DNA of 58,494 bases, taken from contig JACVZW010000027.1 of the NCBI GenBank assembly GCA_014654775.1, positions 17,030-75,523 of the forward strand, read 5' to 3'. The translations under genes and the position numbers were made by a program. Below the pieces are notes generated by a model. It worked only from the letters and a program-made list of their open reading frames with translations. It searched no databases and was not told the DNA's origin. This DNA is from Paracoccaceae bacterium (GTDB lineage Bacteria > Pseudomonadota > Alphaproteobacteria > Rhodobacterales > Rhodobacteraceae). This document shows positions 27,837 to 36,753 of the stretch, piece by piece (positions within the stretch are counted from its first letter, which is position 1; the number at the start of each line of letters is the position of its first letter).

Positions 27837-29813
27837 TCAGAACTCTTCCCAACCGGATTGCGCGGCGACAGCGCGGGCGGGGGTGCGGCTGTGGCTGTCG
27901 CGGGCTGGGGCGGTTTCAGCGGGGCGCAGGGGCGTGACCTTGCCATCCCGGGTGGGCGTTGAGGCGGGGGCGACCGGTACCGGGGTGCCGTCGAGGCGGA
28001 AGCGCTGCATGAGGGCGGCGAGGCTTTCGGCGGCGCGGTGGAGGGAGTGGCTGGCGGCGGTGGATTCCTCGACCATCGCGGCGTTCTGCTGCGTGACTTG
28101 ATCCAGCATGGTGACGCCGGAGTTGATCTCGGTGATCCCGGTGGCCTGTTCGCGGGAAGATTGGGCCAGCGCGGAGACCTGTTCCGCGATGTTGTTGACC
28201 CCAGCCAGGATGGCCTTGAGCGTGCCGCCGGCCTGCCCGACGAGGGTGACGCCATTTTCCACCTGACGGCTGGAGGCGGAGATGAGGGTCTTGATCTCGC
28301 GCGCTGCTTCGGACGAGCGCTGCGCCAAGGCGCGCACTTCGGAGGCGACGACGGCGAAGCCGCGGCCAGCCTCACCCGCGCGTGCGGCCTCGACCCCCGC
28401 ATTGAGCGCGAGGAGGTTGGTCTGGAAGGCGATCTCGTCGATCACGCCGATGATCTGGCTGATCTGGCGCGAGGAGGTTTCGATTTGACCCATCGCCTCG
28501 ACCGCGTCGGTGACGACGCGCCCCGATTCTTCGGCCTCGCGATGCGCGGCGCGGGCGGATTGGTCGGCGCTGGCCGCGCTTTCGGCGGCGGAGCGGACGC
28601 TGGCCGTCAATTCATCCAGCGCGGCAGCGGTTTCCTCCAGCGTGGCGGCCTGCCCTTCGGTCCGGCGGGACAGATCTTCGGCGGCGGCGTTCATCTCGGC
28701 CGCGTCATTGCGGATGCCGGCGGTGACGGACAGGACTTCGACCAGCGCCTCGGACAGGCGGTCGAGCGCGGTGTTGAAGTTCTGGCGCAGCGGTTCGTAG
28801 TGCGGGGGGAAGGCGGTGTGGATGCGATGGGTCAGATCGCCGAGGGCGAGGGCGGTGAGACCATCGCCAAGATGGCGGGCCATGAGGGCCTGCGCCTCTT
28901 GTGCGGCGTGACGCTGCGCCTCTTCGGTTTGGGCGGCACGGACACGGGCGGTGACATCCGTCCCGAGGCAGAGGAGATGATCGACCCTTCCCACGTCATC
29001 CGGGACGGCATGGAACGTCAGGTCAAGCCATGTGCCGCCATCCGGGCCTTTCAGCTGCAGAAGCGCCGTCGCATGACCTTTGGTCGCGGCCTGTGCGAGG
29101 GCCGGGGCAAGCTGCGCATGGTCTTCGCCCAGCAGGGTGGCGAAGGTCTGGCCGACCACGGCTGCGGCATCGCCCCCAGCGGCGCGGGCGGCGGGGGCAT
29201 TGGCGCGCAGGATGCGCCCATCGGGTGAAAGCTCAAAGAGGGGGTGGTTCAGGTCGATCGCCCTGCGCTGGGCCGTCGCGCGCGGCGGTGCGGCGGCTTC
29301 GACAAGGGCGATGACTGCCCCGCCTTCGTTCGGCAGGGGAGTTGTCTTCACCGTCAGGCCGTGAGCGCCTGCGGCGATCGGCTGCGGGGGGGCGGCTGTA
29401 TCCATCAGGCGGCGGTCGTAGTCGGGCAGGAGCAGGCGGATGTCCGTGCCAATGCTTAGAGGATCGGGGGGCAGCGGCAGATTGCGGCGCAGGGCGGGGC
29501 CGTGCTGCGCCAGCAGGGCATGTGCGGCGGCGTTGGCATCGGTGATGCGGCCATCCCTATCCGTCAGGATCAGTGCGGCGGGTGCGGCGTCGAAGCCCAC
29601 AGCGCGGCTGTCGTCCGTTGTCTGCCCCGGCACGGCACGCGTGGCGCGGCGGACGGCGGCAAGGCCCGTGGTCGTGGCCGCGACGAGCGCGGTCGCGGCG
29701 ACCACCCCGGCACCCGGCAGACCCGCCGCCAGCGGCAGCCCCCCGGCCAGCATTCCGGCCACCGTTCCGGCGGCCACCATGACCGGCGTTTCGGCCCTGA
29801 CTTGCGTGATCAT
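27837..29813 (-). CDS. Methyl-accepting chemotaxis protein with PAS domains and C-terminal GWEEF tether
   Basis: ATG 29813 has a GGAGG ribosome-binding site 8 nt upstream, giving 658 residues; the frame is open further upstream but lacks such a site. Two close hydrophobic segments (about 11-30 and 35-55) form a hairpin anchor with no periplasmic sensor. Two PAS-like regions follow (about 75-180 and 190-300), then a HAMP-like stretch (about 320-370). The signalling domain contains the conserved hairpin tip EIAFQTNLLALNAGVEAARA. The last five residues, GWEEF, match the xWxxF CheR/CheB docking pentapeptide. It should sense an internal cue such as redox or energy state. Confidence 0.92.
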   Translation of the reverse strand: MITQVRAETPVMVAAGTVAGMLAGGLPLAAGLPGAGVVAATALVAATTTGLAAVRRATRAVPGQTTDDSRAVGFDAAPAALILTDRDGRITDANAAAHALLAQHGPALRRNLPLPPDPLSIGTDIRLLLPDYDRRLMDTAAPPQPIAAGAHGLTVKTTPLPNEGGAVIALVEAAAPPRATAQRRAIDLNHPLFELSPDGRILRANAPAARAAGGDAAAVVGQTFATLLGEDHAQLAPALAQAATKGHATALLQLKGPDGGTWLDLTFHAVPDDVGRVDHLLCLGTDVTARVRAAQTEEAQRHAAQEAQALMARHLGDGLTALALGDLTHRIHTAFPPHYEPLRQNFNTALDRLSEALVEVLSVTAGIRNDAAEMNAAAEDLSRRTEGQAATLEETAAALDELTASVRSAAESAASADQSARAAHREAEESGRVVTDAVEAMGQIETSSRQISQIIGVIDEIAFQTNLLALNAGVEAARAGEAGRGFAVVASEVRALAQRSSEAAREIKTLISASSRQVENGVTLVGQAGGTLKAILAGVNNIAEQVSALAQSSREQATGITEINSGVTMLDQVTQQNAAMVEESTAASHSLHRAAESLAALMQRFRLDGTPVPVAPASTPTRDGKVTPLRPAETAPARDSHSRTPARAVAAQSGWEEF

Positions 29814-29944
29814 CCTGCAGACCTCCATCCTCATCCGGCCGAACCGTGGCCGCGTCCTTGCCTGTGCTTCCCCCCAAATCTGCGGCTGATTCGTTAAATC
29901 GTGGTAAGTCCCGACCCACCTTTGCCGCGATTTCCGCACCGTCT

Positions 29945-30532
29945 TCAGAACAGCAGCACTTCGCCCGGGCGGATCGGGGAGGCGGGGCTTTCCTCAACTG
30001 CGGTTGGGGGCAGGAGAAATTGCTGCGCCCGGCCTTCGGCAGGCCAGAAACGCAGGCGCCGCGCGCGATTGCCACCGACCGAGCCGCCGATGCAGGGAAT
30101 GCCTTCGCGGCGCAGGAAATCTTGGGCGAAGGCGAGGTTGCGGCTGCCGATGTCGGGCAGGTGCGGTTGCAGATGGGCACCGCCGAACAGCTTGGCCCGC
30201 AGGGAGGGGCGGTCGGCCCCGTGGCGTAGGAGGGCGTTGATCAGAAGCTCCATCGCGTGCAGGCCGTAGCGGAGCGTGGCGGCGCCCCCGACCGGGCCGT
30301 CGGGCAGAAGGAAGTGGTTCATTCCGCCAAGTCCGGCGCGGGCATCCCAGAGGCAGGCCGCGATGCAGGAGCCGAGGACGGTGGAGATCACTTCGTCCGG
30401 CCCGGTGCTGACGTGGTGTTCCCCCTGCAGAAGGGGAATCATGCGGGGGGCGGTCGCCCCGGGCTGGGGATGCCGGGGCGAGGCAGGCGGGGGAGGGGAA
30501 AGATGATCGCGCTGGGACATGTGCGGCAGCAT
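29945..30532 (-). CDS. cheD: Chemoreceptor glutamine deamidase
   Basis: CheD converts receptor glutamines to glutamates. The catalytic Cys is in VLGSCIAACLWD (56) and the His in GGMNHFLLP (73), with the family spacing of 17. The 195-residue call uses the ATG at 30532; an ATG at 30520 would remove four residues. The N-terminal 30 residues are Pro-rich and variable. It is the first gene of the chemotaxis cluster. Only 33 nt separate it from the doxX stop, with no terminator visible, so read-through from the bufferin operon is possible. Confidence 0.92.
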   Translation of the reverse strand: MLPHMSQRDHLSPPPPASPRHPQPGATAPRMIPLLQGEHHVSTGPDEVISTVLGSCIAACLWDARAGLGGMNHFLLPDGPVGGAATLRYGLHAMELLINALLRHGADRPSLRAKLFGGAHLQPHLPDIGSRNLAFAQDFLRREGIPCIGGSVGGNRARRLRFWPAEGRAQQFLLPPTAVEESPASPIRPGEVLLF

Positions 30533-30565
30533 AGGCCGCGGCGGGTTAACCGACCCTTTGCGCGG

Positions 30566-31042
30566 TCAGCCCTGGCGCGCGACCGGGTGGCCTGAGGCGG
30601 CAGGCGGGCCGTCGAGCCCCGCCAGATGATCGAGCGACAGCCGCCCCGGCCCGCGGGCGGCTACAGCGAGAAGGCAGGCGGCCCAGAGGCCATGGGTCTG
30701 CCAAGCGTGGGGATAGACGAAGATCTGGATCACCGCCGTCATCGCGAGAAGACCGAGCGCTGAAAAGCGGGTGGCGAGGCCGAGAATCAGGAGGAGGGGC
30801 AGGACATGCTCGGCCACCGTGGCGGCGACGGCGGCGATGTCGGAGGGGATCAGCGGCAGGGCGTATTCATGTTCGAAGAGGAAGAAGGTGCTGTCGGCGA
30901 TCTGCCAGCCGTCCATCTTGGTGCGGCCCGAGGCAAAGAAGATTGCGGCAGGGAAGATCCGCAGGGCGAGGGCGGGGATGTCCCATGCGATCTGGTCGAA
31001 GAGGCCGTTGATCTGGCGGAGGAGGCCGGTGGTCGAGGTCAT
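30566..31042 (-). CDS. DoxX-family membrane protein, last gene of the bufferin operon
   Basis: The 158-residue protein has four hydrophobic helices and the DoxX segment [26 protein letters not shown] near the N-terminus. DoxX-like proteins are regular companions of DUF2282/DUF692/DUF2063 gene sets; their role there is undefined and may concern membrane redox or peptide export. The ATG overlaps the bufC stop as ATGA, so it is a true member of the operon. Confidence 0.88.
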
Positions 31043-31803
31043 TGCGCGGTCCTTTCAAGGAGGCCGGCAAGCGTGCCGGTCTGGATGAGGCGGGTGAGAA
31101 GCGGGCCCGGATCCGCCCCTTCGGCCAAAGCGGCGGCGGCTAGGAGGGAGTCGCCGCGCAGGAGGGCGGCGAGGAAGGCGGCCTCGCCGGGGGAAAGGGC
31201 GAAGACGGGCACCCGGTCGGCGGTATCACGCAGGATCAGGGCGTTCTCGGCGCGGTCGGGGCGCAGGGGTTTGTCGGGCTGGGCTGCGCCGGGCTGGTTT
31301 GCCTGCCAGATCGAGACCACTGCGAAGCGGGAGCGCAGCAGTTGCACCGAAGGGTGCAGATGCAGGGTGAAGCGTGCGGGATCGGTGGCAGCCGTCGCCA
31401 ATGCGTCGCGCGGGGCGGGGCGGGCGTCAGCGGCATGGTAGGCCTGCCCGCGCAGCCATTCGAGGCGCGCCACATCAGGCAGATAGGGCAGATCGCGCAA
31501 GGGCCGGAACGCCTGCAGGAAGGCCGGGAAGCCTTCGCCCCAGAGAAAGAGGCGGGGATCGCGGGGCGGGTGGTCACGCAGGAACAGGCGTGCGGTGGCC
31601 GCGAAGAAATCGGCACCCACGAGGCGTTCGATCACAGGAAAGCGTCGGGCCAGCGCCCGGGTCAGGCCATGGGCCACGTTGTTGCGGTAGACGGCGAAGC
31701 GGGTCGCGGCCTCGTCCGGTGCATGGGCCGTGACGCCGGGAGGGAGGCTGCCGTCGAATAGGCCCTGACGGAAGGCGCGGGTGAGATCGATTTGCGCGGT
31801 CAT
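31039..31803 (-). CDS. bufC: BufC, DUF2063-family partner of the MNIO enzyme
   Basis: This 254-residue protein matches the DUF2063/HvfC-BufC family. It has an N-terminal helical domain with [21 protein letters not shown] (about 36-56), [19 protein letters not shown] (about 62-80) and [22 protein letters not shown] (about 105-126), and a C-terminal precursor-recognition type domain. BufC proteins present the precursor peptide to BufB. ATG 31803 overlaps the bufB stop as ATGA; the longer frame upstream lies inside bufB. Confidence 0.9.
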
Positions 31804-32648
31804 GCGGCACCCGTGAGCGGAAGGGCGTGGCGGGAAAGGATCGCATCGGCGCGCGCGGCCTCGGCCAGCAGAATGTCGAAGGGGGGGATGTCGTTGTCCC
31901 ATTCGATCAGGGTGGGCAGAGGGCCCGAGTCGGCGATCACCTGCGCGTAGAGTGACCAGACGGGATCGGCGACGGTACTGCCGTGATCGTCGATGAGGAG
32001 GGGGCCGGAGGGGAGGGTCTCTTCGGCATGGCCGCCAAGATGGATCTCGCCCACCTGCGAGAGGGGGAAGGCAGCCAGCCAGTCGCGCGGATCGCGGTGG
32101 TGGTTTGTGCAGGACACGAAGACGTTGTTGATGTCGAGCAGAAGTCCGCAGCCGGTGCGGCGGGCGATTTCGGCCAGGAAGTCGGGTTCGTCGATGCTGG
32201 ACTGTTCGAAGAGGATGTAGGTCGAGGGGTTTTCCAGCAGCAGGCGGCAGCCGAGGGCGGACTGCACCTCGTCGACATGGTCGCAGATGCGGGACAGGGT
32301 TTCGGGCGTGTAGGGCAAAGGCAGGAGGTCGTTGAGGTAATCGCCGCCATGACTGGACCATGCCAGATGTTCGGAAAAGGCGGCGGGCTGATAGCGGGTG
32401 ATCAGAGCACGCAGGCGGGAGAGGTGGGCTGGATCGGGCCGGTCCGGGCCGCCAATGGAGAGGCCCACGCCATGCAGCGACAGGGCATGATCCTGCCGAA
32501 GTGCCGTGAGGTGGCGGTGCGGGGCACCGCCTGCGCCCATATAGTTTTCTGCATGAACTTCGAAGAAGCCGAGGCGCGGGCGGGTCGTACGGATGGCGTC
32601 GAAATGTTCCGGCTTGAAGCCGAGGCCGGTTGTGGCGGGCAGGGGCAT
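31800..32648 (-). CDS. bufB: BufB, multinuclear non-heme iron oxidase (MNIO, DUF692)
   Basis: The call is 282 residues from ATG 32648; the longer frame lacks a family match. It is a TIM-barrel MNIO with metal-ligand motifs in order: [78 protein letters not shown] and [10 protein letters not shown]. Relatives with two or three irons oxidise precursor cysteines; for bufferins the reported products are thiooxazoles that bind copper. It follows bufA after 55 nt and overlaps bufC by 4 nt. Function is by family; the product here is unmeasured. Confidence 0.92.
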
Positions 32649-32670
32649 GGCGGACTCCGTCGCTTGGAAG

Positions 32671-32696
32671 GGGCCGGGGCGGGGACACCCCGGCCC
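32671..32696 (-). promoter_or_regulatory. Intercistronic hairpin between bufA and bufB
   Basis: A perfect 9-bp GC stem (32671-32679 with 32688-32696, 8-nt loop) lies in the 55-nt gap. It has no U-run, so it is likelier a stability or partial-attenuation element keeping precursor message above enzyme message. Confidence 0.6.
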
Positions 32697-32703
32697 GACG
32701 AGA

Positions 32704-32982
32704 TCAGGATTCGATAGCTTCCAGCGAGCCCATCCCGTTGGGCGTTTCCATCGTGGTGCAGGTGCCAGCGGGGACGAGTTTCCAGGCATTGCCCTGATAG
32801 TCGGTCGTCGAGGTGCCGGCGCAGGTCGTGCCCGGACCAGCGGCGCAGTCGTTTTCGCCGGCAAGCGCCACGCCATAGCACTTTTCCATCGCCTCTTCGG
32901 CGTGGGAGGCGGTGGCGGCGGCCATGGTCAGGGCGGCGGCCAGCGTGGCGGTCAGGGTGAGGGTCTTGTCGATCATGGTCAT
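32704..32982 (-). CDS. bufA1: BufA1, bufferin precursor (DUF2282 family)
   Basis: The 92-residue precursor has a Sec signal peptide (about 1-28, cleavage near SHA) and a short mature part with four Cys at 35, 46, 54 and 75. The segments [32 protein letters not shown] and LVPAGTC fit the DUF2282 pattern. In characterised bufferins the core cysteines are oxidised by BufB-BufC and the exported peptide chelates copper. ATG 32982 has AAGGAGC 8 nt upstream; a second ATG two codons later is less well placed. The promoter matches the sigma-F type. Confidence 0.9.
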
Positions 32983-33018
32983 CTTGGTGCTCCTTGTCAG
33001 ACGCAGGTGGGAAGGATG

Positions 33019-33051
33019 GGCCGATGGTCGGCCAAGGACCGCTGCGGTCCT
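33019..33051 (-). promoter_or_regulatory. Two tandem hairpins in the bufA leader
   Basis: Stem 1 pairs 33035-33041 with 33045-33051 (AGGACCG-ctg-CGGTCCT). Stem 2 pairs 33019-33024 with 33028-33033 (GGCCGA-tgg-TCGGCC). With transcription predicted to begin near 33056, stem 1 would sit almost at the 5' end of the message, the position of RNA-stabilising structures. Confidence 0.55.
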
Positions 33052-33062
33052 CGGAGCGTCCT

Positions 33063-33088
33063 TTCGCGGCGGGGCAGAGGGGCGTTAC
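33063..33088 (-). promoter_or_regulatory. Sigma-F-type ECF promoter of the bufferin operon
   Basis: On the minus strand the sequence reads GTAACG (33083-33088), 16 nt, then CGAA (33063-33066). This fits the GTAACC-N16-CGAA consensus I recall for Caulobacter sigma-F with one mismatch in the -35. It lies about 75 nt upstream of the bufA start, in the gap shared with the divergent sigma factor gene. Confidence 0.72.
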
Positions 33089-33216
33089 CGGTGATCACGC
33101 GGAGGTGTTCGAAATCCCGAGAAACGCGAGCGACCGTGAGAATGCTGAAACATAGCTGCCGAATGCTGCAATCGGGATGTAACATCCGGAACCGTGATGC
33201 GTAGGGACAGGACGGA

Positions 33217-33762
33217 ATGACGACGCGCGAAGCCGAATGGTCGGCGCTGCTAATTGCGGCGATGGAGGGGGATGGGCGGGCCTATGCCCGATTCCTCGGC
33301 CTCGTCACGCCCGTCTTGCGGGGGATCGTGCGGGCGCGGGGCCGTGTGCTGGGCCCCGAGGCGCAGGAGGATGTGGTGCAGGAGGTGCTGATCGCGATCC
33401 ACACCAAGCGCCACACGTGGGACCAATCCGCCCCGCTGCTGCCGTGGCTTTATGCGGTGACGCGGCACAAGGTGGTGGATGCCTTCCGTCGTAGGGGCGG
33501 GGCGGTGCATCTGCCGATCGAGGATTTCGCCGATGCGCTTGAGGCGCAGGTGGAGGGAGATGGGATGGCCGCGCGCGACAGTGCCGCCCTGATCGGGCGG
33601 CTGGATGCGCGGTCGGCGGATATCGTGCGGGCCGTGAGCCTTGACGGGCAGAGCACGGCCGAAGTGGGTGCCCGGCTCAGCATGAGCGAGGGGGCGGTGC
33701 GCGTAGCCTTGCACCGGGCGATACGCCGGATGGCGGAGATGGCGAAGGGACGGGACGGATGA
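33217..33762 (+). CDS. ECF RNA polymerase sigma factor (SigF-like)
   Basis: The 181-residue protein has sigma region 2 (about 20-92; EAQEDVVQEVLIAIHTKRHTW and LYAVTRHKVVDAFRR) and region 4 (about 122-172; RLDARSADIVRAVSLDGQSTAEVGARLSMSEGAVRVALHRAIRRM), with no further domains. It is translationally coupled (ATGA) to a DUF1109 anti-sigma gene and divergent from the bufferin operon, the arrangement of sigF-nrsF systems. It should direct RNA polymerase to GTAAC/CGAA promoters, including that of bufA. A weak GTAACA-N15-CGTA (33179-33203) upstream of its own start might allow autoregulation. Confidence 0.9.
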   Translation: MTTREAEWSALLIAAMEGDGRAYARFLGLVTPVLRGIVRARGRVLGPEAQEDVVQEVLIAIHTKRHTWDQSAPLLPWLYAVTRHKVVDAFRRRGGAVHLPIEDFADALEAQVEGDGMAARDSAALIGRLDARSADIVRAVSLDGQSTAEVGARLSMSEGAVRVALHRAIRRMAEMAKGRDG

Positions 33763-34394
33763 AGACGGATGATCTGATCGGGCTTCTGGCGGCGGACAGC
33801 GTTCCGTCGGCACCGCTGCATCCGGCGCGGATCGGGGCGATGACTGTAGCGGCGATCGTGGCGGTGGCGGGGCTGTTTCTGGCGCTGGCCGGGATGCGCG
33901 AGGGGCTGGCGGTTGTGATGCAGCGGCCGGAGGTGGTGGCCAAGACCCTGCTGCCGCTGATCCTGTTTGTGCTGGTGCTGCCTTGGGCATTGAGGCAGGT
34001 GCGGCCCGAGGCGGGCGCGCCGCACTGGGGCCTTCTGCTGTTGCCGCTGGCGGTGGCGGTGGGGCTTTTCGCATGGGCCTTCGCGACCCTGCCGCCCGAG
34101 CAGCGCTTTGCCGAGATGATGGTGTCGGCCATCACGGAATGCCTTGGGTTGATCGTGCTTCTGTCGCTGCTGCCGTTGGGGCTGCTTCTGTCGCGGATGC
34201 GGCAGGGGGCGAGTGTTGCGCCCATGCGGGCCGGTGCGCTAGCCGGGTTGGCGGTGGGCTGCGGGATCGCGGCGGGCTATTCGCTGTTCTGCACGAAGGA
34301 TAACCCGATCTTCTATGTCATCTGGTACGGCGTGGCGGTGCTGCTGGTCACCGGGATCGGGGCGTTGGCGGGGCGACGGCTGCTGCGCTGGTAG
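33759..34394 (+). CDS. nrsF: NrsF-family membrane anti-sigma factor (DUF1109)
   Basis: The 211-residue protein has six predicted membrane helices (about 26-46, 63-77, 90-110, 120-143, 158-177, 184-203) and a short cytoplasmic N-terminus that would hold the sigma factor. Cysteines are at 128, 168 and 178. In the Caulobacter protein two conserved Cys (131 and 181 as I recall, also 50 apart) are needed to respond to chromium and cadmium, so C128 and C178 are the likely sensing pair. Its stop directly abuts the stop of the convergent gene, leaving no intergenic base. Confidence 0.88.
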   Translation: MKTDDLIGLLAADSVPSAPLHPARIGAMTVAAIVAVAGLFLALAGMREGLAVVMQRPEVVAKTLLPLILFVLVLPWALRQVRPEAGAPHWGLLLLPLAVAVGLFAWAFATLPPEQRFAEMMVSAITECLGLIVLLSLLPLGLLLSRMRQGASVAPMRAGALAGLAVGCGIAAGYSLFCTKDNPIFYVIWYGVAVLLVTGIGALAGRRLLRW

Positions 34395-35264
34395 TCAGAA
34401 CCACTGGCCGGGTTCCATCAGGCCCAGATCCATCAACTGCTGCGAATGCCATTCGAAAGGCGTGGAATTGTGCCAGCGGAAGCTGCCGATTTCCCACCGC
34501 GAGCCGGGATTTGATTTGAGCGCCTTGGCGGTGCGGAAGGAGCAGACGGCGGCGGTCAGGTTGTTGTGCCACGGGCAGGCATAGGTGTTGTACTCCTCAT
34601 CCGAGAAGGTGAAGTCGGGGCGCAGGACGAGGCCCTTTTTCGCCTTGAAGAGCGAGATGCGGTCGATCTTGCGGCGGGTCCATGGAACATGTTCCTCGAA
34701 CCGCCAGCGCAGGCCGCCGAAGAAATCGAGTTGCCGTTCCTTGGGGTGCCAGTTGTTGTCCGGGTCCTGCCGCGCGAGGGCATAGTAGCCCGACCTGTCG
34801 AGATGGGCGGATTCAAGGCTGACCGCGCCGGGAAAGCGGTCGAGATCCCCGGCATAAAGGTCGATGACATAGGTGAGCATCGCGTCGCGCCGTTCTTCGG
34901 CATGGAAGGCGAGGAGGTCGCGCACGGTGCGCGTCTCGCAGAACGGATGGAACAGGTACTCGGAATTAAAGCAGTAGAACATCCACAGGCCGGGAAAGGC
35001 GTCGATCAGCTGGTTCACCGCGCCGGGAAGGGCGTTTTCGGCGTGGACGTCATGATCGATGCGGTGGATCTGGGGATCGAGCGCCGGGGCGACGGCGATT
35101 TCCGGCGGGGCAAGGAGGAGGACATCGGTGAAGCCTGCGCGCAGGTGATGGCGCAGGGTGGTGTCCACCTCGACCCCGTCCTCGGCCATGATGATGGCCA
35201 GTGGTCCCTTGGGCGGGTTTGCCGCCGCTGCGGCGATGAAGGCTGACAAAGACCCGTGCTGCAT
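34395..35264 (-). CDS. Putative glycosyltransferase family 2-like protein
   Basis: ATG 35264 gives 289 residues; an upstream ATG at 35327 would add 21. The N-terminal half looks like a nucleotide-sugar-binding Rossmann region ([23 protein letters not shown] and VLLLAPPEI), and the centre has an acid-rich [13 protein letters not shown] stretch. There is no signal peptide or membrane helix. The family call is tentative, made from overall resemblance to proteins annotated as glycosyltransferase 2 in Rhodobacteraceae. Nothing nearby indicates a polysaccharide locus. It is divergent from miaB. Confidence 0.5.
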
Positions 35265-35418
35265 GCACCCTGCCCGAACTGCACTCTTGCGGCCCTTGGT
35301 GACCGTACGGCGCGCAGAGTCCGGCATGGCCCGCGCCGATGCAAGCCCCTTTGGCGGGGCGTCGATTGCGAAATCGCGAGATTTGGCTATATGGGCGCTT
35401 GCGGATCAGGGGGGCGAG

Positions 35419-36753
35419 ATGCCGGACACCAAGAAGCTGTTCATCAAGACCTATGGCTGCCAGATGAATGTCTATGACAGCGAGCGCATGGCCGAGACGC
35501 TGGGCGCGGAAGGCTATGTCGTGACCGAGGTGGCGGAAGAGGCGGACATGGTGCTGCTGAACACCTGCCATATCCGCGAGAAGGCTTCGGAGAAGCTCTA
35601 TTCCGACCTTGGCCGGTTGCGGCCGCTGAAGCAGGCCAAGCCCGATCTGAAGATCGGGGTGGCAGGTTGCGTCGCGCAGGCCGAGGGCGAAGAGATCCTG
35701 CGGCGGATGCCTCTGGTCGATCTTGTGGTGGGGCCGCAGAGCTATCACCGCCTGCCGGGGATGATGGAGGACATCGCCAAGGGGAAGAAGGCGGTGGACA
35801 CCGATTTCCCCGCCGAGGACAAGTTCGACCACCTGCCGGAGCGGAAGGTTCTTCGTGGACCGTCGGCCTTTCTGACGGTGCAGGAGGGGTGCGACAAGTT
35901 CTGCGCCTTTTGCGTCGTGCCCTACACGCGCGGCGCGGAGGTGAGCCGTCCTGTGGCGCGGCTGCTGGGCGAGGCGCGCGCGCTGGTGGAGAAGGGCGTG
36001 AGGGAGATCACGCTCTTGGGTCAGAATGTGAATGCCTATCATGGCGCGGGCGAAGACGGCGCCTGGGGACTGGCGCGGTTGGTGCGGGCCTTGGCGAAGA
36101 TCGACGGGCTGGAGCGCATCCGATATACGACGTCCCACCCCAACGACATGGAAGACGATCTGATCGCCGCCCACGGCGAGGAGGCGAAGCTGATGCCCTA
36201 TCTGCATCTTCCGGTGCAGTCTGGGTCTGACCGCATCCTGAAGGCGATGAACCGCAAGCACACGCGCGATCAGTATTTCCGGCTGGTGGAGCGAATCCGT
36301 GCAGCGCGGCCCGACATCCTGCTGAGTTCTGATTTCATCGTGGGGTTCCCGGGGGAAAGCGATGCCGATTTCGCCGATACGATGGACCTGATCCGTCAGG
36401 TCGGGTTTGGGGCGGCGTTCAGTTTCAAGTACTCCGCACGGCCCGGCACACCGGCGGCAGAAAAGACCCCGGTCGAGGCCGAGGTTGCGGATGCCCGGCT
36501 GCAGGAACTGCAGGCGCTGATCACGTCGCAGCAGCGCGCGGCGCAAGAGGCGATGGTTGGGCGCGAGGTGGCGGTGCTGTATGAAAAGGCCGGGCGGCTG
36601 CCGGGGCAGATGGTGGGCAAGTCAGACCATTTGCATGCGGTGCATGTCACCGACCCGTCGGCGCGGGTGGGCGATCTGGTGCGGGTCAGAATCACTTCAT
36701 CAGCCCCCAATTCGTTGGCGGGACTGCGGATCGCGGCCGAAACTGTTTCCTGA
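35419..36753 (+). CDS. miaB: tRNA-2-methylthio-N6-isopentenyladenosine37 synthase
   Basis: MiaB adds a methylthio group to i6A37 of tRNAs. ATG 35419 with GGGGCGAG upstream gives 444 residues; the longer open frame would overlap the divergent gene. Visible parts are the N-terminal UPF0004 domain with cluster-binding Cys in [24 protein letters not shown] and [11 protein letters not shown], the radical-SAM motif in [15 protein letters not shown] (about 155-170), and a C-terminal TRAM domain (about 375-440). It is normally encoded near phoH-ybeY in alphaproteobacteria, as here. Confidence 0.96.

Follow-up and report, generated by a model that had tools for sequence, protein, structure and literature searches.

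A 58,494-nucleotide stretch of contig JACVZW010000027.1 from a Paracoccaceae bacterium (the window, whose numbering is used throughout) carries the genes bufABCD and, divergent from them, sigF and nrsF, which encode an extracytoplasmic function (ECF) sigma factor and a membrane anti-sigma factor. bufABCD is probably an operon for a Buf1-type copper-binding ribosomally synthesized and post-translationally modified peptide (RiPP), with one promoter under two inputs, the sigma-F/NrsF pair and the response regulator CenR. That sigma-F and CenKR, a two-component system of the envelope, jointly control the bufA promoter is a prediction from sequence. The gene layout itself was known; what is new here is the predicted CenR-box wiring of bufA control. 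The elements on which it rests lie between the divergent genes.

33063-33088, minus strand: predicted sigma-F promoter of bufA, GTAAC-N17-CGAA; the same motif occurs in most relatives with NrsF and in none without it
33179-33203, plus strand: predicted sigma-F promoter of sigF-nrsF, GTAAC-N16-CGTA; similarly positioned in several relatives
33095-33108, minus strand: dyad ACACCTCCGCGTGA, predicted CenR box, 6 nt from the bufA -35; based on a de novo motif, a held-out test and similarity to CenR sites

The comparison covered the window genome and 120 relatives (121 in all), with an NrsF match in 38 and a match to DUF2282, the BufA family, in 66. The training set consists of 62 bufA upstream regions, 29 from NrsF-positive and 33 from NrsF-negative genomes, and the held-out set of 38 regions (6 and 32, respectively) from 38 of 39 further genomes of the family. 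Loci without the DUF2282 core pattern were dropped from the training set (L108, L115, L117, L124, L125, L127 and L128), L390 was dropped from the held-out set, and G524, whose NrsF match falls below the cut-off, was counted as negative. The sigma-F motif, GTAAC and CGAA or CGTA separated by 15 to 17 nt, stands before bufA in 25 of the 29 positive training regions and in none of the 33 negative ones. The held-out regions gave 4 of 6 and 0 of 32. The Fisher p values of 1.6e-13 (training) and 2e-4 (held-out) are uncorrected for shared ancestry and overstate independence because the sampled genomes are related. A GGAAC variant was also allowed in the training search, and its single match in an NrsF-negative genome (L090) was left uncounted. 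The remaining positive training regions have GTAAT-N17-CGAA (G006, G015 and G010) or, in a second copy (L126), neither form, and the two held-out misses carry GTAAC-N17-CGAC and GTAAC-N18-CGTA. GTAAT-N17-CGAA is also the bufA promoter of a Gemmobacter fulvus plasmid. Three genomes (G014, G110 and G082) retain the motif before bufA with sigF unlinked to buf; therefore the sigma factor acts in trans. At the window's bufA the ECF16 motif GTAAC-N17-CGAA is exact, and at sigF it is the variant GTAAC-N16-CGTA.

The window genome has 14 exact GTAAC-N16/17-CGAA matches, of which only that of bufA is clearly an intergenic promoter. Twelve of the other 13 are within open reading frames (ORFs) of 60 codons or more; the last, L179, is intergenic, and no gene downstream of it is convincing. 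A scan for GTAACR-N14/15-CGTA gave four matches, one at sigF, one in L179, and two whose contexts were outside the comparison. The motif is not enriched genome-wide, because the patterns read backwards are commoner than forward. A larger sigma-F regulon in this genome was rejected, the exact-motif scans giving no clear further intergenic promoter, and so was msrP as a member, there being no sigma-F motif on its strand in L197. L197 (G000:C75) itself holds an msrP-msrQ-like pair; the gene divergent from it encodes a secreted protein, fasciclin-like as judged by eye. L179 (G000:C14:92800-95402) has two sigma-F-like motifs about 130 nt apart beside a polysaccharide-export-like gene.

The second element became visible when promoters were aligned at the -35; a dyad lies directly upstream of the bufA -35. 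The exact form WCAC-N6-GTGW is present in 14 of the 29 NrsF-positive bufA regions, where shuffles predict 0.2, and in 9 of the 33 NrsF-negative ones, where 0.4 are expected. De novo expectation-maximization search of the positive regions gave gAtCACc....CGtGA adjoining the -35, with a log-likelihood of 254 compared with 98-103 for three shuffled sets. The negative regions gave ACg.g..cGTGA..cACGG.c.CGTGA.T (276 compared with 97-112), so that a doubled, tandem form of the dyad is found where NrsF is absent. The element, first noticed in NrsF-positive promoters, is thus confirmed independently by the NrsF-negative set. Matrices frozen from the training sites (the tandem from 19 of 33 negative, the dyad from 20 of 29 positive) were applied to the held-out regions at a 1% shuffle threshold. 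The tandem matrix passed in 28 of 32 negative and none of 6 positive regions, the dyad matrix in 4 of 6 positive and 10 of 32 negative ones. The dyad is also present at the G. fulvus locus, one of three named plasmid loci.

The dyad has the shape of a known binding site. In Sinorhizobium meliloti the binding site of CenR, an AGTCAC-N6-GTGACT repeat, immediately precedes the -35 of srlA, a gene for a protein with a predicted thioredoxin-like fold (PMC9561847). In Rhodobacter sphaeroides, where CenR is essential, Table 1 of PMC9275681 has 31 sites, including ACACGAGCGCGTGAG before cenR itself; sites also precede L,D-transpeptidase, dsbC and msrA genes, and the targets include the response regulator gene cenR. 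The 31 rows of that table, as printed, do not include bufA. The consensus from the 31 sites, TcACg....cgTGA, correlates with the NrsF-positive dyad (r 0.62, p 0.0004) and with the NrsF-negative tandem (r 0.48, p 0.02). A matrix of these published sites exceeds the 1% null in 23 of 85 bufA regions of the family, about one being expected. These forward-strand passes divide into 5 of 28 positive and 18 of 57 negative regions, and on the reverse strand 13 positive and 6 negative regions pass.

Other genes with the element point the same way. Among 20 NrsF-negative genomes the tandem pattern has 10 exact matches: 8 before bufA, as expected because those promoters supplied the pattern; of the other two, one precedes a cenR-like gene for a response regulator and one falls inside an ORF. 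With a single mismatch it also matches before an L,D-transpeptidase gene (L327); the contexts inspected were 30 fetched loci of 65 listed matches. The bufA-derived pattern had matched the response regulator (L329) and the L,D-transpeptidase promoters before the CenR link was known. The L329 protein has Asp residues at 11-13, 51 and 56, the positions given for CenR in PMC9275681. The window genome has a very similar gene (L298) with ACACGACCGCGTGA 101 nt before its ATG; bufA has ACACCTCCGCGTGA.

Several observations weigh against CenR control of bufA. The window dyad, which ends 6 nt before the -35, scores no better than shuffles with the published CenR matrix on the forward strand (p 0.35); the motif of the set matches CenR, and the single site is not called. 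In the 50 nt upstream of the -35 that matrix passes the 1% threshold in 4 of 18 bufA and 2 of 16 sigF promoters of the family. For bufA regions from outside the family the passes are 0 of 7 NrsF-positive and 1 of 8 NrsF-negative. Two of the 6 held-out positive regions fall below the dyad threshold, G529 clearly and G560 narrowly, and six positive training regions, all from other families, match fewer than 7 of the 8 dyad positions. The two Paracoccus plasmid loci have no dyad adjoining the promoter, and their bufA promoters have no CGAA or CGTA, reading GTAAC-N17-CGAT by eye. The term 'duf692' is absent from the main text of PMC9275681, with the buf status of R. sphaeroides itself unchecked. 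On the sigma-F side, the tested fusions of the homologous S. meliloti system were uninduced by Cd, chromate or H2O2 (PMC6180224). Because the window site is uncalled alone, the matrix is weak and the Paracoccus loci are without the dyad, CenR is a supported prediction rather than a demonstration.

A similar dyad may extend to a second gene set. In the window's genus ccdA is located elsewhere, and in the 8 genomes inspected its promoter has GTAAC (2) or GAAAC (6) followed by CGTA; GTAAC is intact in G017 and G001. A dyad similar to that of bufA accompanies these promoters and is exact in 3 of the 8 by eye. The window genome's copy (L268, G000:C59:157175-157879) has ccdA then a thioredoxin gene, a CenR-like dyad, and the -35 GAAAC, one base off sigma-F. 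A wider reading, held with somewhat less confidence and still favored on balance, is that bufferin operons of Rhodobacteraceae belong to the CenKR envelope regulon, the box being doubled where sigma-F/NrsF is absent and single at a sigma-F -35, with thiol repair in the periplasm, through ccdA-trx, as a co-regulated arm. If this is true, peptide copper buffering is tied to envelope homeostasis and is not a private metal circuit. Bufferins are widespread, and no account was found of their control where sigma-F is absent. No CenR-bufferin link appears among the literature matches listed, in a collection short of many subscription papers. By hand count, buf-carrying genomes sampled from other genera of the family mostly have no NrsF over the cut-off (59 of 73). 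The predicted CenR box names a testable regulator and would connect peptides that chelate copper with a response regulator of the envelope, one essential in R. sphaeroides.

The AlphaFold2 model of NrsF (predicted local distance difference test score 87.7) has six helices of at least 20 residues. C128 and C178 are the conserved cysteines of two alignments: in A2, C128 is invariant and C178 is present in at least 90% of rows, and in A1 the second Cys is missing in 4 of 21 rows (L062, L138, L139 and L145), all distant. Because the second conserved Cys is absent there, sensing may differ in the distant branch. The two residues probably correspond to Cys131 and Cys181 of Caulobacter NrsF, both required for normal control (PMC3511200). 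In the model C178 sits in the loop joining the two final helices, which would be periplasmic given a cytoplasmic N-terminus, and C128 is close to that same side of helix four; the Bradyrhizobium paper places the first Cys of its NrsF-type protein within the membrane (PMC3420878).

The company of nrsF genes bears on the signal. A class survey added 60 new loci from over-cut-off places, with 18 weaker complete matches and the partial ones left out and with crude ORF choices as gene calls within the compared loci. Of the resulting 102 NrsF loci (92 genomes), 53 have buf nearby and 33 have no buf, thiol, methionine sulfoxide reductase (Msr) or molybdo gene. Thiol- or methionine-repair genes are found at 25 loci overall: trx/ccdA at 13, dsbD at 3, msrB at 9, and a molybdo-oxidoreductase or cytochrome b at 5. 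Among buf loci without a local NrsF only 1 of 43 has such a gene, a CcdA (G010, with NrsF elsewhere; p 7e-4). The signal may thus be oxidized periplasmic sulfur, and we infer that NrsF reads oxidized or metal-bound periplasmic sulfur. This gene company is a possible account of why the anti-sigma factor responds to metals in one species but to HOCl or peroxide elsewhere. Individual arrangements differ. A Paracoccus liaowanqingii plasmid has bufABC, a DoxX-CcdA gene, thioredoxin, sigma and DUF1109 genes all in one direction. At L132 (G003) sigF-nrsF is divergent from genes for a Met-rich secreted protein, cytochrome b561 and a molybdo-oxidoreductase, which recalls reactive-chlorine systems, and at L145, L223 and L233 from genes for MsrB and a DsbD-like protein, with a thioredoxin-type part at L145.

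It is possible, if doubtful, that the main role of the system is in oxidative or chlorine stress on periplasmic sulfur, with copper handling secondary. The excess of repair genes at NrsF loci fits this, as do homologous systems that answer HOCl in Brucella (PMC8315932) or H2O2 in Bradyrhizobium (PMC3420878). Against it, buf, a copper chelator, accompanies more than half of the NrsF loci counted above. In Caulobacter, moreover, the sigma-F regulon is Cu-induced in all tested conditions (PMC8224329), and the sigma-F genes are not induced by generators of reactive oxygen species (PMC3511200). The original prediction had also proposed metal or redox sensing at the membrane. That general idea gains support, by analogy, from the NrsF cysteines and from the Caulobacter metal responses, the regulon there being induced by Cu (PMC8224329) and by Cr and Cd (PMC3511200); its exact signal does not, given the non-inducing metals and peroxide in S. 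meliloti.

The dyad could instead bind something other than CenR, such as a copper-dedicated regulator whose half-site is like TCAC/GTGA, but this is unlikely. Such a regulator would account for the rarity of exact tandem matches beyond bufA (2 of 10), unlike the broad CenR regulon, and for the moderate similarity of tandem and CenR sites (p 0.02). However, two of the few non-bufA intergenic matches in the 30 inspected contexts lie at known kinds of CenR target, a cenR-like gene and a gene for an L,D-transpeptidase, and both the shape and the position of the box agree with S. meliloti srlA. BufC, which has the Pfam label 'putative DNA-binding domain', was considered as the binder and set aside, its published role being that of RiPP partner and CenR fitting better.

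More unlikely still is that sigma-F/NrsF alone senses metal and drives bufABCD with no important regulator at the dyad: it would suit the description of Caulobacter CC3254 as solely sigma-F-regulated (PMC3511200), the copper induction of that regulon (PMC8224329), the two Paracoccus loci and the exact-motif scans of the window genome, which show no clear further member and do not cover all GTAACR/CGTA contexts, but the dyad is conserved far over shuffles with and without NrsF, recurs in held-out genomes, resembles the box of a characterized regulator and also precedes the cenR-like gene of the window genome. The circuit had originally been called self-contained. That word is not supported, because the conserved element beside the bufA -35 resembles a CenR box and so points to an unlinked regulator.

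Control by sigma-F together with CenR would work as follows. As established in relatives, NrsF at rest would keep the sigma factor at the membrane. Oxidation or metalation involving C128 and C178 may release it, and the freed sigma factor would transcribe bufABCD and, at least partly, its own operon from the GTAAC/CGAA or CGTA promoters. CenR, the response regulator of CenK-CenR, would act as a class II activator at the box abutting the bufA -35, a new proposal; also new is the proposal that the doubled box is the chief conserved element of control in those sampled members of the family that lack NrsF. BufA would be made in the cytoplasm; as in relatives, BufB with BufC would convert cysteines to thiooxazoles, and the modified peptide, once exported, would sequester surplus periplasmic copper. 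Both 5-thiooxazoles and a tie to copper are described for bufferin 1 and peptides related to it (PMC13097082).

The bufA transcript has a further feature in its leader.

33032-33054, minus strand: 5'-leader hairpin of bufA mRNA, 10-bp stem and 3-nt loop

Hairpins recur in bufA leaders of relatives with differing sequences. A perfect stem of at least 7 bp just past the -10 is present in 27 of 50 bufA/bufB leaders (7.7% in shuffles) and in none of 40 sigF leaders, and the median folding z is -1.7 on the bufA side versus 0.2 for sigF. In the 33 leaders whose stems reach 6 bp or more, all six of the pairs nearest the loop appear in differing Watson-Crick versions, a variation that is descriptive only because these leaders were selected for pairing. 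A fixed-window fold test (-90 to -20 of bufA) left NrsF-positive and NrsF-negative regions unseparated (median z -0.56 and -0.68), so the hairpin is visible only in promoter-aligned leaders. An Rfam search of window positions 30000-35000, to E 1, gave no family for it. Stems of this kind at the 5' end commonly protect mRNA, and this one would probably stabilize bufA mRNA or tune its translation.

The locus consists of six genes.

32704-32982, minus strand: bufA, secreted four-Cys DUF2282 (Buf1) precursor, 92 aa; PF10048 E 1.9e-26, 92.2 bits against a cut-off of 22.4
31800-32648, minus strand: bufB, MNIO (DUF692) maturase, 282 aa; PF05114 E 4e-104, MNIO_BufB over cut-off
31039-31803, minus strand: bufC, DUF2063 partner protein; PF09836 E 7.5e-24
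30566-31042, minus strand: bufD, DoxX-family membrane protein; PF07681 E 8.2e-18
33217-33762, plus strand: sigF, ECF16-type sigma factor; PRK12512 over cut-off, overlap with nrsF, GTAAC/CGWA promoters
33759-34394, plus strand: nrsF, six-helix membrane anti-sigma factor; PF06532 (formerly DUF1109) E 5.2e-40

The original prediction named these genes at these positions and strands, and all six exceed the curated cut-off of a Pfam family. It described a secreted four-Cys DUF2282 precursor, which agrees with the profile match, the four Cys and an N-terminal stretch judged signal-peptide-like by eye, and a bufferin-type operon, which the gene content upholds, BufB reaching 380 bits against the cut-off of 310 of the NCBIfam equivalog MNIO_BufB. 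The sigma factor coupled to a DUF1109 membrane anti-sigma factor was likewise borne out by the PF06532 match, the six-helix model and the gene overlap. The predicted ATGA overlaps among bufB, bufC and bufD are real (31800-31803 and 31039-31042), and sigF-nrsF has one at 33759-33762. The divergence of bufABCD from sigF-nrsF is not chance, recurring at 18 further loci among 85 from relatives.

Other NCBIfam models sharpen the assignments. SigF scores 203.7 bits against the PRK12512 cut-off of 198. NrsF meets PF06532 and scores 63 bits, below the cut-off of 300, with NF042994, and is thus a homolog and not a strict equivalog. BufC (63 bits, HvfC cut-off 142), BufD (53 bits, HvfX cut-off 80) and BufA (22 bits, BufA2 cut-off 60) also fall below; for BufA nothing in the NCBIfam scan is over cut-off, and its assignment comes from Pfam and context. 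The likely ATG of bufB is at 32648, 55 nt past bufA, the longer listed ORF starting further upstream. BufB has a PDB relative, 3bww (E 3e-39), and was aligned to it and to MbnB. PDB sequence searches gave no match for BufC at E 0.01 and no solved relative of NrsF at E 0.1, and the best Foldseek match of NrsF has only E 0.8. By profile search, the window genome holds one DUF2282 gene.

The buf-sigF block is flanked by an MCP/cheD pair (27837-30532) and by genes for a 310-aa protein and a MiaB-type radical SAM protein (34395-36753). The syntenic site in G009, G014 and G017 has sigF-nrsF without buf; the 310-aa and MiaB-type genes are shared by all three and cheD/MCP by G009. Because sigF-nrsF with shared neighbors occurs without buf, buf was gained or lost at the window site.

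The locus is a further member of the ECF16-bufferin kind, whose layout has already been published for Caulobacter and Sinorhizobium. Caulobacter has the same six genes, CC3254-CC3257 (DUF2282, DUF692, DUF2063 and DoxX) with sigF-nrsF (CC3253-CC3252), the same promoter motif (GTAACC-N16-CGAA) and the conserved NrsF Cys pair (PMC3511200, PMC8224329). A sigF mutant there is copper-sensitive (PMC8224329). Unlike the window genome, whose msrP-type gene has no upstream motif, Caulobacter counts an additional buf cluster and msrPQ among its regulon members. The available portions of its sigma-F literature describe no dyad or operator. In the S. meliloti RpoE7-EcfR7 system (ECF16), bufABCD-like genes also adjoin the sigma pair, and RpoE7 overexpression activates SMb20530-SMb20527 from GTAAC-N17-CGAA promoters (PMC6180224). 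A survey of MNIO genes found sigma and NrsF domains frequent near them and present in Buf1 clusters, the same association as here; thioredoxin, CcdA and an operator are absent from its main text (PMC12452194). Bradyrhizobium EcfF-OsrA and Brucella BcrS-AbcS share the ECF16 sigma factor and NrsF-type anti-sigma factor (PMC3420878, PMC8315932), and a GTAAC/CGAA promoter was shown for Brucella (PMC8315932). Their output is different and has no bufferin: Msr enzymes with thioredoxin and a DsbD-like protein, co-regulated by EcfF/OsrA in Bradyrhizobium (PMC3420878), or bcrXQP. The CenR regulons of R. sphaeroides and S. meliloti resemble the window in a TCAC-N6-GTGA-like box directly upstream of the -35 and in the boxing of cenR too.

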